From Citrifermentans bremense (GTDB taxonomy: Bacteria > Desulfobacterota > Desulfuromonadia > Geobacterales > Geobacteraceae), in NCBI RefSeq assembly GCF_014218275.1, contig NZ_AP023213.1:372001-436000 (forward strand): 64,000 bases of DNA, given 5' to 3'. The notes below the pieces were generated by a model. That model saw nothing but the letters and a program-made list of their open reading frames with translations. It had not been told where the DNA came from and made no database searches. Shown piece after piece: positions 2,479 to 43,923 of this stretch. The first letter of the stretch is position 1. Each line of letters begins with the position of its first letter. Both the position numbers and the translations under genes were made by a program.

Positions 2479-2725
2479 CGTAACTTGTACTATTGCCCCG
2501 GATCTTGGCACTTCCCAAATAGCACTCTCAAACCCTGCCTCCAGTCCTCTTCACCCCCTTCGCATCGTTTCCCTCTACGAATCCACTGTCTTGACAAATA
2601 CTAATTGATATCCCCCAACTGCGCGTGATAGTCTGATTGCCCGAAATCGGACCGCCAAGGTTTAGCCAAACTCGCTATGAAGTGAATTGTCAGCATCTAA
2701 TGATGCAAGGAAGGCGACCACAGAA

Positions 2726-4477
2726 ATGACCACAGAAGATTTGTTGCAAGACCTCAAGAAGAAAGGCGAACTTGACGAACGCCACCTTTTGGCTTCGATC
2801 CGACTGCTGCACTTACTTGCCTCAGGGAAATCCTCCGAAGAGGTCATGTCCACGCTGTTACCTTTTTTTCAAGAACTTTCAGGATGTGAAGCTGTAGCTG
2901 TCCGACTTCGTGAAGAAGAGGATTACCCCTATTTCCATACCCTGGGTTTCGCATCTGAGTTCGTGAACGCTGAGAGTCATCTGTGCGCAAAAGACTTGGC
3001 CGGCCAGATAAAAAGGGACAACATCGGCAATCCGGTTCTGGAATGCATGTGCGGCAACATCCTCTGCGGGCGCTTTGACCATGGCAAGCCTTTCTTCACC
3101 CCGAATGGCAGTTTCTGGACAAACAGTACCAGTGAGTTACTCGAAGGTACTACCGAAGAGGACCTCCAGTCACGAACCCGCAACAGATGCAGCGCGGAGG
3201 GATACGAATCAGTAGCCCTGGTTCCACTTCACCATAATGAAGAAATCATAGGACTGATACAGTTCAACGATCGACGCAAGGATCGATTTTCCAAAGGGTT
3301 TATCTCACTTGTAGAGTTGTTGGCAGACAGCGTGACCGTTGCGGTAGTTAGGCGGTGGGAGGAAGATAGCCTCAGAAAGCGCGAGGAATATTACCGCGCT
3401 ATGGTGACAGCGTTCGACGGGTTGATATACATCTGCTCGGCCGATTACCGGATCGAGTTCCTGAATGAAGCCCTGAAGCGGCGTATTGGGCACGACGCCA
3501 CCGGCGAGCCATGTTATGAAGCTCTGCATGGACTTGATGCCATCTGCCCCTGGTGTAAAAACGACCTGATTTTTGCAGGCGAGAGCCATCGTTGGGTGGT
3601 GCAAAGCCCAAAAGACAACCGCTGGTACGAAGTTTCCAATACCCCGATAAGGAAAAACAACAAGATCGTTTCCAAGCAGGCGATGATTATGGACGTGACA
3701 GAGCGGCAACAACTGCACGAGGAGATTCTGCGCAAGCAACAAGATTTGATACTGGCAAATGACCTGTTGGAAAGCCGCGTTGCCGAGCGAACCGCCAATC
3801 TGGAGGCAGCAATGAGGGAACACGAGTCATTCAGTTACTCCGTTTCCCATGACCTGCGCGCTCCCCTGCGCCACATCAACAGCTTCAGCGCCATTATGAT
3901 GGAGGAATTAGCGGACGAACTGCCGCCTACTTCGAAGGACTACCTGGAGCGGATCCGCTCAGCATCCAACAGGATGGGGGGATTGATCGACCACCTGCTT
4001 GAACTGTCCAGGGTAGGGAGGGCGGCGCTGAAACTGGAGCCGGTGGATTTGAGCGAGATGGCCGCGTCCATTTTGACCGTTCTCCAGGAGATGGAGCCGA
4101 AGCGGACGGTCAAAATATTTGTCGAAGAGGATATGCGGGTGCTGGGGGACCGGACACTGTTGCAACAGTTGCTTCAGAATCTGCTGGGAAACGCCTGGAA
4201 GTACACCTCCAAAACCGTAAATGCTCATATCGAGTTCGGCAGTTCAAAGCGAGGCGAAGGCGCAGTTTTCTATGTCAAAGATAACGGCGCAGGGTTCGAC
4301 ATGCAGTACAAGGACAACCTGTTCGTTGCCTTCCAGCGTTTGCATACCGGGGAGTTCGAAGGAGAAGGGATCGGGCTTACCACCGCTCAGCGCATAATCC
4401 AGCGTCACAGTGGTGACATCTGGGCTGAGGGAGAAGTAGGAAAGGGGGCGACCTTCTACTTCACCTTGCCGAATTAA
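2726..4477 (+). CDS. GAF-PAS sensor histidine kinase
   Basis: A soluble kinase of about 583 residues with no TM segment. Order: a GAF-like domain (~20-205), a PAS domain (~225-330), a coiled coil, HisKA with SHDLRAPLRH (phosphoacceptor His about residue 375) and a HATPase with the N box NLLGNAWKYT and GAGFD. The GAF part carries a Cys cluster (ECMCGNILCG) and the PAS has CPWC, which may bind metal, heme or Fe-S or sense redox. The reading frame is open from a TTG at 2687, but ATG 2726 has AAGGAAGG upstream. No response regulator is adjacent, so this is an orphan kinase. Composition is less GC-rich than the flanking core genes. Confidence 0.85.
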   Translation: MTTEDLLQDLKKKGELDERHLLASIRLLHLLASGKSSEEVMSTLLPFFQELSGCEAVAVRLREEEDYPYFHTLGFASEFVNAESHLCAKDLAGQIKRDNIGNPVLECMCGNILCGRFDHGKPFFTPNGSFWTNSTSELLEGTTEEDLQSRTRNRCSAEGYESVALVPLHHNEEIIGLIQFNDRRKDRFSKGFISLVELLADSVTVAVVRRWEEDSLRKREEYYRAMVTAFDGLIYICSADYRIEFLNEALKRRIGHDATGEPCYEALHGLDAICPWCKNDLIFAGESHRWVVQSPKDNRWYEVSNTPIRKNNKIVSKQAMIMDVTERQQLHEEILRKQQDLILANDLLESRVAERTANLEAAMREHESFSYSVSHDLRAPLRHINSFSAIMMEELADELPPTSKDYLERIRSASNRMGGLIDHLLELSRVGRAALKLEPVDLSEMAASILTVLQEMEPKRTVKIFVEEDMRVLGDRTLLQQLLQNLLGNAWKYTSKTVNAHIEFGSSKRGEGAVFYVKDNGAGFDMQYKDNLFVAFQRLHTGEFEGEGIGLTTAQRIIQRHSGDIWAEGEVGKGATFYFTLPN

Positions 4478-4525
4478 CCCGCATTATCCGCAGTCATCAC
4501 ACGCCTTAGCGCTCCCCAACCGAAG

Positions 4526-5455
4526 CGGTGGGCCCGTTCCATTTAAGCGGAATGTCGTTCAGCTAAGACGGAGCGCCGCCCAAGCAAGAGGGAGCGCCGA
4601 CCAAACAACTCGGAGAGCCATTTCATTCGAACGGGGCTCCGTCTTACCGAAACGGATAGCCGTTTTGCCAGGACGGAGGGCTGTTTAACCGAAGCGGAGA
4701 TACCGTTCAGCGAAGACGGAGTGCCGACCAACTTAGATGGAGCGCCGAACAACCTCAAACGGAGGGGCGGTTTAACTGAGGTGGAGCTCTCGCCGAACTT
4801 TAATGGTGGGCTGATTAACTTAAGTGGAGTTCCCGACAAACCTATATGGAGGGCCATTTAAAAAAGTTGGGAGGTCTGTTCCATTAAAATGGAGCTCCAT
4901 TCAACTAAAGCGGTGGTCCGAATAACTTAAGCGGCATGCCGTTTAAAAAGTTGGTGCTCCAACTAACTTCGAGAAAGTGCCGTATAACAAGTTGAAGCGG
5001 GGCGGGTGGACACCTCCAGGTGGTCCGTCGGGGCAAATGGGAGCTCGCTTGGGCGGTGAGGCAGCACCGGTTTTTCTGAGTGGCATGTCGATGTGCAATA
5101 TCGGAGCTCCTTTTTTGTGAAATAGAGCATCGGTTGGCGTAAGTGGAGTGCCGTTTTAGGTTACGCGGTACGCCGAAAAGTAAAACTGGAGCTCCGCTTA
5201 GTTCACTCGCCATGCCAGCCTGGTAGAAATGGAGCTCCCCTTTAGTTACACCGTAGTCCCAGCAAGTAAAAATGGAGTGCCGACTAAAATAAACGGAGCG
5301 CCACATAAGAATGCCTGTATGCCGTTTATGTAAGTTGGAACTCCAACAAAATAAAATGGTGGTCCGATATTATAAAATGACACTCCATCTAAGTTAAACG
5401 AGGCTCCGAGAAGTTTAATTGGGGTACCAAACAGATAACCCGGTACTCGTTGCCA
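4526..5455. repeat. Degenerate 21-bp tandem repeat array (~43 units)
   Basis: From about 4526 the sequence is a head-to-tail series of 20-25-bp units, mostly 21 or 22 bp. The plus-strand consensus is YGGAGNNCCG followed by NNYAACYNAAR. Clean consecutive units run 4548-4568, 4569-4589, 4590-4610, 4611-4631, 4632-4652, 4653-4673, 4674-4694, and then with mixed 21/22-bp steps to 4951. The middle part (about 4973-5150) is more eroded, and the pattern is regular again from 5150 to 5450. The most conserved positions are the GG and CC of a GG....CC core, often exactly GGAGCTCC or GGCATGCC (palindromic). No plus-strand frame is open. The minus strand reads as GxPxxL heptads, but the 22-bp units break that frame. 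It ends about 35 bp before the lipoprotein start. It is neither a CRISPR nor a simple satellite. Confidence 0.85.
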
Positions 5456-5491
5456 CACCTGTTATTTATTTAATATTTCGGAGGGACAACG

Positions 5492-6388
5492 TTGAAATTG
5501 AGATTTGTCGGTGTGGTCATGTTGGTGGCCTGTTCACTGTTTTTGTTGGCGGGTTGTGGCGGAGGAGACAGCACAGCAACACCCGTTACTGTCCTTAAGA
5601 GAGTTGGCTGGATGTTCGATAACGTCCCATCTGATATTGTCCCTTCTGGCGATAACAGTATCCTAAACGTCCGCCTCTACTATGACGAATCTATCCCACA
5701 AGACCAGATAGACGGCATCGTCATCACTTCTCCAACAGGTGCGTACTGGACCCCCAATTTATCCTTCAGCACGTCCAGTAACGGCTCCCCCTGCTTGGTT
5801 GCCACCCTGGTGTTCTCAAACCGAGAAGCGATCCCTCTTGCTGGGACATGGAGTTTCCACGTAAAGCTGAAAAACATCCCGACTTACCCATTTGAAATGT
5901 CGCTGCATGAGCCGGGGAGTACTGCCAGTGCAAGCCGCCCTTATCTCTATACCAAAGAGGACTGGTCCCCAGTTTTTCCGGGTGGATACGTAGCGGCATT
6001 GGCCCGCTACCCCTCCCAGGGGTATCAGGTGCAGTATTCGCCGGATAACGGGGGCAAAATCAGCAGCATCGGTATGTCAGCGGTGCGGACTGCATACCTT
6101 TGGTCTGAACAAAGAAAGTACAACTCGTATATATGGCTGTTTGATGCGAACAAGAACTACCTGGGGATGACCACCAACGAGTACGCAACCAGCGATCATG
6201 CCAGTACTGATCTGATAACTTCGGCAGGTGAACTGTCCATAGTTCCCGCAACCACAAACGTCTCGGTAGCTCCAGTAAATCTTGCGGACGTTAAATATCT
6301 GAGATTCGTCATGACCGATGGAGCTCAATATGCGCCAGATTATAACTATGATTACCGGTCAGTGTCGTCCCTTGTCCCGGTAAATTGA
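5492..6388 (+). CDS. Secreted lipoprotein of unknown function
   Basis: A 298-residue protein from a TTG start with GGAGGG at 5480-5485. The first 22 residues form a lipoprotein signal: Lys/Arg start, hydrophobic core and lipobox LAGC (Cys 22), followed by GGG. The mature part is rich in beta-type, Ser/Thr/Tyr-containing sequence with no motif I recognise (for example TNVSVAPVNLADVKYLRFV near the end, which resembles a jelly-roll/carbohydrate-binding-module strand pattern). It should be anchored at the periplasmic face of a membrane or exported to the surface. The 21-bp array lies immediately upstream, so its promoter must be inside or beyond the array. Confidence 0.7.
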   Translation: MKLRFVGVVMLVACSLFLLAGCGGGDSTATPVTVLKRVGWMFDNVPSDIVPSGDNSILNVRLYYDESIPQDQIDGIVITSPTGAYWTPNLSFSTSSNGSPCLVATLVFSNREAIPLAGTWSFHVKLKNIPTYPFEMSLHEPGSTASASRPYLYTKEDWSPVFPGGYVAALARYPSQGYQVQYSPDNGGKISSIGMSAVRTAYLWSEQRKYNSYIWLFDANKNYLGMTTNEYATSDHASTDLITSAGELSIVPATTNVSVAPVNLADVKYLRFVMTDGAQYAPDYNYDYRSVSSLVPVN

Positions 6389-19160: not shown

Positions 19161-20180
19161 ATGCGCGTCGGCATCATCTCCCCAAACTACTACGCCGAGG
19201 AAACCGGTAACGCCGTGACGGTGAGGCGCGTCGAGCGGCACCTGAAAGAGCTTGGCTGCGAGGTGAAGGTTTTCGCGACGGATCGCATGGCCGGGGAGAA
19301 GCTGCAGGGGGCGGTGGCTGAATTCGCGCCGGATATCCTGCACGCCTTCCACGCTTACCACGGCGGCAGGATGGCCTGCGTGCTGTCCAAGGTGCTGGGG
19401 ATTCCCTACCTGGTGACCTTCACCGGTACCGACATCTACAACGCGCTCTGCGACCAGCGCAACCTGGAGCTCCACGGAGCCCTCAGGGGGGCAAGCCGGC
19501 TGGTGGCGTTCCATGGCTGCGTCCGTCACCGGCTGGCTAAGCACATGCCGAGCCTGGAGGAGCGGACCGCCATAATACCCCAGGGGGTCGATCTCCCCGT
19601 CGACTGCACCACGCTTCCCCCGGCCGAGGAAGGAAGCTTCACCTTTTTGCTGCCGGCAGGCCTGCGCCCGGTGAAGAACGTACTGTTCCCGCTGGAGCCT
19701 TTGGCTGCGCTTTACGCCGCCCATCCCCAGGTGCGCCTGCTTCTAGCGGGCCCGGTGCTCGACAAGGACTACGCAGCACAGGTGATGGAGGCACTGGAAC
19801 GCTACCCCTTCGCGAGGTACCTTGGAGTGGTGGGGCACGACCTCATGGGGGATCTGTACCGCCGAATCGACGTGGTGCTGAACAGTTCCCTCAGCGAGGG
19901 GGGTATGGCCAACACGGTCCTAGAGGCGATGGCCTATGCCAAACCGCTTCTGGTCGCGGACATCGAGGGAAACCGCTCTGTGGTCAAGGAACACGTCACC
20001 GGCCTCTTGTATCGCGATTCTGGAGAGTTCGTGGCCAAGGCCGGCGAGCTTTTGGCAGATGCCAGGTTGCGGGAAAAGCTGGGCAAAAATGGCAAAGCCC
20101 AGGTCCGCGAACACTACTCCCCCGACAAGGAAGCCGTCTCCTACCTCAACCTCTACCGCGAGATACTGCAAGCGAAGTAA
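19161..20180 (+). CDS. GT4-type glycosyltransferase
   Basis: 339 residues with a GT-B fold. The N-terminal MRVGIISPNYYAEETGNAV contains the Gly-rich loop, and TFTGTDIYNAL is typical of GT4 acceptor domains. The C-terminal donor site is seen in NSSLSEGGMANTVLEAMAYAKPLL, where an Asn/Glu cluster replaces the classical EPFG motif. The likely role is sugar transfer from a nucleotide sugar onto a lipid or polysaccharide. It is transcribed divergently from the MBL hydrolase with a ~157-bp gap, and the GGTTCACATG context gives an RBS-weak start. Confidence 0.85.
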   Translation: MRVGIISPNYYAEETGNAVTVRRVERHLKELGCEVKVFATDRMAGEKLQGAVAEFAPDILHAFHAYHGGRMACVLSKVLGIPYLVTFTGTDIYNALCDQRNLELHGALRGASRLVAFHGCVRHRLAKHMPSLEERTAIIPQGVDLPVDCTTLPPAEEGSFTFLLPAGLRPVKNVLFPLEPLAALYAAHPQVRLLLAGPVLDKDYAAQVMEALERYPFARYLGVVGHDLMGDLYRRIDVVLNSSLSEGGMANTVLEAMAYAKPLLVADIEGNRSVVKEHVTGLLYRDSGEFVAKAGELLADARLREKLGKNGKAQVREHYSPDKEAVSYLNLYREILQAK

Positions 20181-23313: not shown

Positions 23314-23866
23314 AGAACCAATTGACGGTTGACGATTGACAATTGACAACGATAACCCAGTCTAAAGTTGACTTGACTGGATATGGTTACTTTTTGTTGT
23401 GCTCCTTGGTCGTTTTAATTATTGAAGTAAGCAGTTTCAATAGGCATTTGGTATCTGAGGCTATCGAGTGATAATTCTTCTCATCGAGATAATTGGACTG
23501 GTGAAGGAGTTCAAGCCAGTACTCCGTTTCGTTGGCTTCTTTTAGAGCTATTGCCATTTTGTGAATGAAGTCGGCTCTACTTTCAGCCTGTTCAGCTTCG
23601 CGCACTAATGCACCAACCGCGGTGCCAGATCTCAGCAACTGCTTGCCGATCACGAATTCCTTTCGCTCGCAGAGAAACTGGTACAGCTTGATGATTCTTA
23701 GCGCGAAAGCAAAAGATTTTTCTTTGACCGCATTGGTTTCCATCCGAAAGGTTGTAATCGCCAATTAATAATTGTCAATCGTCAATTGCCGTTCGACGCT
23801 TTGATCGTCAATCGTCCATTGCCTTACAACGCTTTAGTTGTCAATTGTCCATTGTCAATTGGTTCT
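23314..23866. mobile_element. TIR-bounded non-autonomous element with a four-helix-bundle gene
   Basis: The 553-bp segment begins AGAACCAATTGAC (23314-23326) and ends with the exact reverse complement GTCAATTGGTTCT (23854-23866). Between the termini are further imperfect GTCAATTGTC/GACAATTGAC repeats (23327-23350 and 23762-23853). The only gene inside is the four-helix-bundle ORF. No transposase is present. The right terminus supplies the recD stop codon. A related terminus occurs at 43911-43923. Confidence 0.75.
23387..23743 (-). CDS. Four-helix-bundle protein (S23/IVS type)
   Basis: 118 residues, all helical: KEKSFAFALRIIKLYQFL, GKQLLRSGTAVGALVREAEQ and DFIHKMAIALKEANETEYWLE. The GTAVGALVREAE and ALKEANETEYWL motifs are diagnostic of the S23/four-helix-bundle family, first named from 23S rRNA intervening sequences. 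It is not a known enzyme. The frame is open to a TTG at 23764 in the repeat, but ATG 23743 is more plausible; no good ribosome site is visible. It is AT-rich relative to its neighbours and lies wholly inside the TIR-bounded element. Confidence 0.85.
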   Translation of the reverse strand: METNAVKEKSFAFALRIIKLYQFLCERKEFVIGKQLLRSGTAVGALVREAEQAESRADFIHKMAIALKEANETEYWLELLHQSNYLDEKNYHSIASDTKCLLKLLTSIIKTTKEHNKK

Positions 23867-43778: not shown

Positions 43779-43923
43779 GTCAATTAATAATTGACAATTG
43801 ACAATTGACAATGGACAACGGAAAACCGGATTGACAATGCGGAGAGCGCACGTACCAGTGAAGCGGGCTTCAGTGAGGTGTGTTGCATTGTCAATCGTCA
43901 ATTATCAATCGTCAATTGGTTCT
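43779..43923. repeat. GTCAATTGAC-type repeat cluster with the GTCAATTGGTTCT terminus
   Basis: About 145 bp of imperfect GACAATTGAC/GTCAATCGTC repeats on both strands. The right end is GTCAATTGGTTCT, identical to the right terminus of the element at 23314-23866; the left end begins GTCAATTAATAATTG like the internal repeat at 23761. No gene inside. Confidence 0.8.

Follow-up and report, generated by a model that had tools for sequence, protein, structure and literature searches.

Known Repeat Systems and the Array

Several multicopy families, among them intergenic "direct repeats of 6 to 42 nucleotides", were reported in Geobacter bemidjiensis in 2010, and the sections of that report used here leave their meaning open (PMC2996986). 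The tandem array considered here lies in the window, by which we mean the whole 64,000-nucleotide stretch of DNA that was analysed, and belongs to a set of elements, family A, that is itself a multicopy intergenic repeat of this clade. It has in common with the intergenic repeats of G. bemidjiensis and G. metallireducens the bacterial group, the intergenic position, the multiple copies and an open function, but the sections used of these two reports contain no 21-bp family, dyad, core conservation or family swap; their supplementary tables may already list family A (PMC2996986, PMC2700814).

According to the excerpt used of PMC5016525, the iteron centromeres of plasmid par systems lie near their par genes, and ParR, ParG, omega and TubR bind as dimers to tandem iterons, building wrapped or filamentous complexes. 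The present array likewise has tandem units at a fixed spacing (20-22 bp), but it comprises up to 44 degenerate units, its family occupies several chromosomal loci, and no par gene was found among the neighbours scanned. Because no partition operon (an adjacent NTPase with a centromere-binding protein) was seen among the 15 neighbour proteins scanned, 0/15 matching a partition family, we do not file the array as a Par-type centromere, and the likeness would be functional and structural only. ParM (StbA, PF06406) was matched in 0/6 genomes, and equally in 0/14 controls.

REP and BIME elements are intergenic and palindromic, the REP units being short hairpins that often occur in pairs. The array is alike in position and palindromy but forms one tandem array without hairpin covariation. 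CRISPR and VNTR loci share its head-to-tail arrangement, whereas here spacers are absent and the units are strongly diverged. Curved A-tract DNA, as described in the excerpt used of PMC3940949, has helix-phased A/T-rich segments in common with the array. Family A, however, is almost without a 10.5-bp component (W/S power in the window array is at most 0.3 at 10-11 bp against 11.3 at 21.3 bp) and its best-conserved part is GC-rich; a 10-11 bp W/S component is present in families C and D, described below. Curvature predicted by a wedge model lies above the dinucleotide-shuffle mean in 10/10 arrays, with z of at least 2 in six, which is what any helix-phased repeat would tend to show. Among the titles and abstract openings that our literature searches listed, none concerns a 21-bp two-turn array of such a kind.

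The Window Array and Its Unit

The array extends over 4505..5440, with no strand assigned, between a sensor kinase gene (2687..4477, + strand; GAF, HisKA and HATPase_c domains and a weak PAS) and a lipoprotein-like gene (5492..6388, + strand; a lipobox-like LLAGC by our own reading, and no Pfam match). The autocorrelation of 4526-5455 is strongest at lag 21 (43% identity, z = 12.6), followed in order by lags 42, 43, 85, 63 and 84, against a top z of 4.4 over 100 lags in 500 dinucleotide shuffles, and the 21-bp period thus withstands shuffling. A unit model seeded with the consensus of the first-pass annotation places 41 units of 20-22 bp at 4505-5440 with a score of 353; the same model gives 98-132 in 20 base shuffles and never more than 196 on either strand of ten other 1-kb windows. 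Without any given consensus, a cyclic model resolves 44 cycles of mean period 21.27 bp and scores 357 (six shuffles, 35.8 +/- 5.6). By all three approaches, the tandem array of about 43 units of 21/22 bp that had been proposed from the letters alone is real, with 41-44 head-to-tail units depending on the model, mostly of 21-22 bp. Relative to the extent first given, 4526..5455, the array begins about 20 bp earlier, 28 bp past the kinase stop. Tandem Repeats Finder reports only three short pieces within it (2.6, 1.9 and 2.3 copies).

The unit reads approximately YGGAGnKCCR + WYYAAnTWAR, a GC-rich half alternating with an AT-rich half, and is palindromic. The unit profile correlates with its own reverse complement at r = 0.82-0.84 in four arrays of family A, for which permutation sets the 95% level at 0.54-0.60; the window array itself has 0.82 against 0.54. 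Since the profile equals its own reverse complement, the GC-rich half of each period holds one dyad and symmetry places another in the AT-rich half. The core that had been singled out in 20 consecutive units at 4548-4972 is borne out by our own count (GG in 20/20, GGA in 15/20, CC at the expected place in 13/20). Counted directly in the window array, the start distance from GG to CC is 6 in 25 cases, 7 in six and 5 in three, and that from CC to GG is 15 in 24 cases and 16 in 14. In model-placed indels from four arrays, however, the core is not depleted (14/40 against 13.3 expected). The proposal of selection on spacing falls short of proof: the window array and its ortholog differ by nine 1-bp gaps per 280 substitutions, and the GG-to-CC distance looks rigid by direct count and not by model placement.

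Two blocks and a distinctive middle make up the array. The left block (4505..4993, + strand, 23 units) scores 210 on the + strand and 149, for 4537-4982, on the - strand; the array scores on both strands because its units are palindromic. The right block (5060..5440, + strand, 18 units) partly alternates as a 43-bp double unit. Units near 5000-5100 fit the unit model poorly, yet they contain a central stretch (5039..5073, + strand) that is recognisable in all seven family-A arrays. Its pattern in several of these is GAGCTCGC.TGGGC.GT.A.G.AGCACCGGTTT, and in the C. bemidjiensis array and one C. bremense array (C2b) the stretch reads as ordinary units with no gap.

Distribution and Turnover of Family A

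The genome that holds the window (G000) is a single 4,458,493-bp contig of the Citrifermentans (Geobacter bemidjiensis) group. Family A consists of seven discrete elements of 0.6-0.9 kb: three loci in this genome, three in a C. bremense genome (G006) and one in C. bemidjiensis (G014). The two further loci of G000 lie at about 1,812,079-1,812,969 on C1 and at about 107,600-108,250. With the window array as DNA query, 3/39 genomes match, its own included, and 36/39 are without a match. At an E-value cut of 0.01 the C. bemidjiensis array as query matches 4/19 genomes of the genus, the match in G018 spanning just 23 bp, and the second G000 array matches 3/19. A 30-letter motif of the central stretch was found only in C. 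bremense among 84,980 species genomes, a search that may omit records close to that of the window itself. Neither the 72,556 plasmid records nor the 50,697 phage records searched gave a blastn match, and the central motif had none in viral contigs; on these searches a plasmid or phage origin was rejected. In 836 kb of G000, runs scoring at least 15 are confined to the two long arrays of the sample, with one five-unit run, at 14.4, falling slightly short of that threshold. Scattered single operators above background were likewise absent from these 836 kb.

At the kinase locus, the C. bremense ortholog of the kinase gene adjoins the array and the C. bemidjiensis ortholog adjoins a different one; in both relatives other ORFs take the place of the lipoprotein-like gene. 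The window array and the C15 array of C. bremense occupy the same site, as placed by the kinase orthologs. A more distant kinase homologue (71%, G002) has no array beside the gene by either scan. One neighbouring gene is common to the C. bemidjiensis array, C2b and the second G000 array; across the listed ORFs and the 15 scanned neighbour proteins, no recurring neighbour gene emerged. These proteins matched a kinase, a transglutaminase-like protein, a sigma-54 regulator, anthranilate synthase, a nucleotidyltransferase, a PEP-CTERM protein, an MFS transporter, an aquaporin, a pyrophosphatase and glycogen synthase, the rest having no match or a weak match only.

C. bremense has an array at its trpE locus that neither C. 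bemidjiensis nor G000 carries at the corresponding site. Several gaps between aligned arrays correspond to one or more units, or to units plus one base (21, 22, 43 and 169 bp), and C2b includes several near-identical 21-bp units. Taken together, the missing trpE-site array, the unit-sized gaps and the near-identical units indicate, on sequence comparison, that arrays are gained or lost and that they grow or shrink by whole units. The divergence of the units had been read as speaking against recent slippage; this is half right, failing for whole-unit growth and shrinkage, as the near-identical units of C2b and the gaps of 21, 43 and 169 bp attest.

Other Unit Families

By the first-pass annotation, an orthologous locus with this period but other units would support its reading, and this is the situation at the kinase locus of C. 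bemidjiensis, where the array is built of another unit, like CTATTTCCAAACGGGTTTATG, with z 9.6 at period 21. This family-B array lies at L059:4346-4701 (equivalent to about 9345-9700 of L120). Just before it, at about 4280-4345 of L059, we noted by eye an apparent family-A remnant of one to three units. At L059:4750-4789 there is a short REP-like element with many near matches in the genus, often as inverted pairs about 100 bp apart.

A sampled census for any period of 14-30 covered 836 kb of G000, 400 kb of C. bemidjiensis (G014) and 200 kb each of G007 and G019. It returned 33 signals in G000, 11 in G014 and two in each of the others; a block-shuffled G000 control gave one signal and none of at least four windows. 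Most signals fall in a long open frame by our cut (27/33, 9/11, and 4/4 for G007 and G019 together). That cut, set at 0.75, leaves six signals in G000 and two in G014 (L120 and L135). Three of the six, each covering one or two scan windows, are weak: 43771 of the window (period 14), L076 (period 15) and L118 (period 21). The others are the window array, L064 and L106. L073, L126 and L138 exceed the cut (0.76, 0.83 and 0.86); we retained them as non-coding on inspection by eye, since stops occur in every frame of the stretch shown and their mean period does not correspond to whole codons. The longer arrays judged non-coding, with a period of about 20-21, are, in G000, the window array and L106 (family A), L073 (B) and L064 (C), and, in G014, L120 and L135 (B), L126 (C) and L138 (D). 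No such non-coding arrays were found in the 200-kb samples of G007 and G019. Period-21 signals at 19891-20130 of the window and in L103 were set aside, as on inspection they lie in open frames.

Mean periods are 21.2-21.3 bp in family A and 20.4-20.8 bp in the other three families. For dyad symmetry, 7/10 arrays exceed the permuted 95% level and three (B_G000, B_G014 and D_G014) are just under it. Both L073 and L135 (family B) lie behind a proton pyrophosphatase gene and the gene before it, and the next gene after L135 in G014 is glycogen synthase, on the other strand. Family B matches 4/141 genomes of the order (G000, G006, G014 and G017) and family C 3/141 (G000, G006 and G014); an earlier family-B query matched 15/19 genus genomes, mostly via a short REP-like stretch at the query end. 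Between G014 and G006, the better-conserved phases of family B diverge less (Spearman -0.48, p 0.03), and in G006 this family has near-identical units within an older array. The family-C arrays (CRAATRTGWCATWTT) at L064:5890-6150 and L126:285-485 lie near an orthologous gene in two species. The family-D array at L138:9126-9395 has long A-tracts every 20.5 bp or so and the largest predicted curvature of the ten arrays. Overall, this looks like a lineage-specific class of arrays.

Short tandem repeats of 7, 14 and 33 bp (e.g., CAATTGA and ATTATCAATCGTCA) occur at 23319-23861 and 43781-43917 of the window; the heptamers recall those reported for G. metallireducens, with a different unit. At L118:13440-13760 a small reading frame behind another gene has an apparent 14-residue repeat and might encode a repeat-containing peptide precursor.

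Conservation of the Core

To compare rates within the unit, we aligned three orthologous pairs of family-A arrays (the window array with C15, C2b with the C. bemidjiensis array, and the second G000 array with the C. bemidjiensis array), taking the phase from one member only and using all units of the called runs. The GG/CC core differs in 69/404 cells against 502/1717 at other positions (p = 4e-7) and, for G/C sites only, in 43/359 against 238/692 (p = 5e-16); these p-values are guides only, as the unit profile was trained on six of these arrays, the pairs have species and one array in common, and strict independence of sites does not apply. Core divergence is thus about half that of the remaining positions. 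Among 21 rotations of the core pattern the true phase has the lowest relative rate, 0.56, the next being 0.68. An earlier form of this comparison, which used only units that had been called in both members of a pair, yielded 31/318 against 348/1340. Natural selection seems, from these sequence comparisons, to keep the GG/CC core, and the suggestion of selection on the core made in the first-pass annotation gains support from this slower divergence between orthologous arrays.

Possible Nature of the Arrays

We tentatively favour, as plausible rather than probable, the view that the array works at the level of DNA and offers dyad sites, spaced by about two turns, to a dimeric protein that would bind them cooperatively and give a one-faced filament or a wrapped complex. 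Each unit would present one dyad site, GGnnnnCC inside YGGAGCTCCR, and successive dyads, about two turns apart, would face roughly the same side of the helix. A putative dimeric DNA-binding protein would, we infer, most likely bind these sites cooperatively, and once bound may form a one-faced filament or wrapped complex, by analogy with centromere-binding proteins on iteron arrays. A filament of several hundred bp between operons could serve as a patch with an architectural or insulating role, or could titrate the protein. Periodicity, palindromy, the slower divergence of the core, the discrete elements at several loci, array turnover and the different unit families of similar period are shown; binding by a protein, its dimeric state, cooperativity and the role in the cell are inferred. 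The prevailing GG-to-CC and CC-to-GG distances, the lack of clear RNA covariation and of a coding signal, and the confinement of high-scoring runs to long arrays in the 836-kb sample also speak for this reading. Several points stand against it: no protein is known to bind the array, the neighbours listed and scanned include no recurring gene, model-placed indels are not depleted in the core, dyad symmetry is just under the permuted level in 3/10 arrays, a conserved core would suit an RNA as well, and the mean period differs between families, which leaves exact helical phasing along a whole array conjectural.

A satellite-like or selfish array, whose unit would duplicate and pass from locus to locus at no benefit to the host, keeping its core for the sake of spreading, is in our judgement unlikely, even though several features of turnover would suit it. 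Near-identical units sit inside older arrays (C2b and family B of C. bremense), arrays are present or absent at orthologous sites such as the trpE locus, another family occupies the kinase locus of C. bemidjiensis, and by DNA family A goes undetected outside close relatives (the match in G018 spanning 23 bp). However, core conservation persists between orthologs at about 30% divergence, where purely decaying repeats should have lost the core, and 0/15 of the neighbour proteins scanned is a transposase.

Transcription of the array into a long tandem-repeat ncRNA, whose units would bind an RNA-binding protein or pair promiscuously, we consider improbable. Core conservation would fit an RNA as well, GGA is present in many units, and some units are individually conserved between paralogous arrays. 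In the array orientation the + strand also has the more stable fold of the two strands in each of the four family-A arrays folded (-351 against -311 kcal/mol for the window array, and a difference of only 7 kcal/mol for the third G000 array, supplied in reverse orientation), an advantage not separable from base composition. Against this, the pairs that a unit hairpin would need (1-10, 2-9 and 3-8) do not covary (z -0.3, -0.1 and -0.3), nor does position 10 with position 1 of the next unit (z -2.6). Mutual information does appear at 4-7 and at the adjacent 5-6 (z 3.2 and 9.8), as is general for adjacent positions, and a few other cross-unit pairs among the 441 tested reach z 3 to 4.5. A single-unit or adjacent-unit hairpin is accordingly rejected, as its required pairs do not covary. 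Unit order has no effect on folding in four of the seven family-A arrays, on either strand (z -0.5 to 1.4). Among the five B, C and D arrays folded, one family-B array on the + strand folds better than all 40 of its unit-order shuffles (z = -3.5), the other values ranging from -1.9 to 1.2, and we rejected a fold set by unit order, with this array positive on one strand. In the central 296 columns of the seven family-A arrays, RNAalifold gives a covariation term of +3.28 on the + strand (61 pairs), which is unfavourable, and of -0.56 on the - strand (36 pairs), which lends very little support; single pairs changed on both sides number 9/61 and 7/36, and the compensatory base changes of a structured ncRNA were not found. 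No Rfam family matches at gathering score in five loci, 4300-5700 of the window giving matches only far below gathering scores, and promoter-like and terminator-like signals number two each, against 1.4 and 1.7 in shuffles. A CsrA sponge acting through GGA was also dropped, as A stands at position 4 in only 104/185 distinct units and CC is kept too. The RNA shape put forward in the first-pass annotation as an alternative to selection on spacing is not supported, since the needed dyad and adjacent-unit pairs do not covary, the four family-A arrays folded show no effect of unit order, and RNAalifold lends no net covariation support on the + strand and very little on the - strand.

Finally, a decayed gene for a protein of seven-residue repeats, suggested by stretches reading NGxPxxL on both strands (which we take for a by-product of the palindromic core) and by a 104-codon frame open on the - strand at 4543-4857, is scarcely credible and was rejected: stops occur in 6/6 frames of 7/7 family-A arrays (5 to 22 per frame), 0/12 gaps between the window array and C15 are multiples of 3, nine being of 1 bp (per 280 substitutions), against 1/2 and 3/9 in the other two pairs, the third-position pattern is inconsistent over six array pairs, families B, C and D have non-codon mean periods, two ORFs tested have no Pfam match, and no intact homologue, the case that would have overturned the first-pass reading, appeared in 141 genomes of the order, searched for family A with the longest minus-strand ORF product only, whose 104 residues match 2/141 (G000 itself, and G006 weakly).

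Returning to dyad sites for a cooperatively binding dimer, we put forward a broader version that is possible, though doubtful: the C. bemidjiensis/bremense lineage may carry "two-turn arrays" of unrelated, mostly palindromic families, interchangeable at one site and selected for a same-face dyad ladder, each family with its own cooperative binder, that would serve as modular patches such as insulators, anchors or centromere-like sites. If the dyad-site reading is right, these would be, to our knowledge, among the longest bacterial iteron platforms, chromosomal and exchangeable between families. They would then allow a direct test of whether bacteria build local nucleoprotein structures from helix-phased ladders of sites, and the unexplained, abundant intergenic repeats of subsurface Geobacter would become testable, given a motif, a core that is conserved, and closely related species that differ naturally in whether an array is present.
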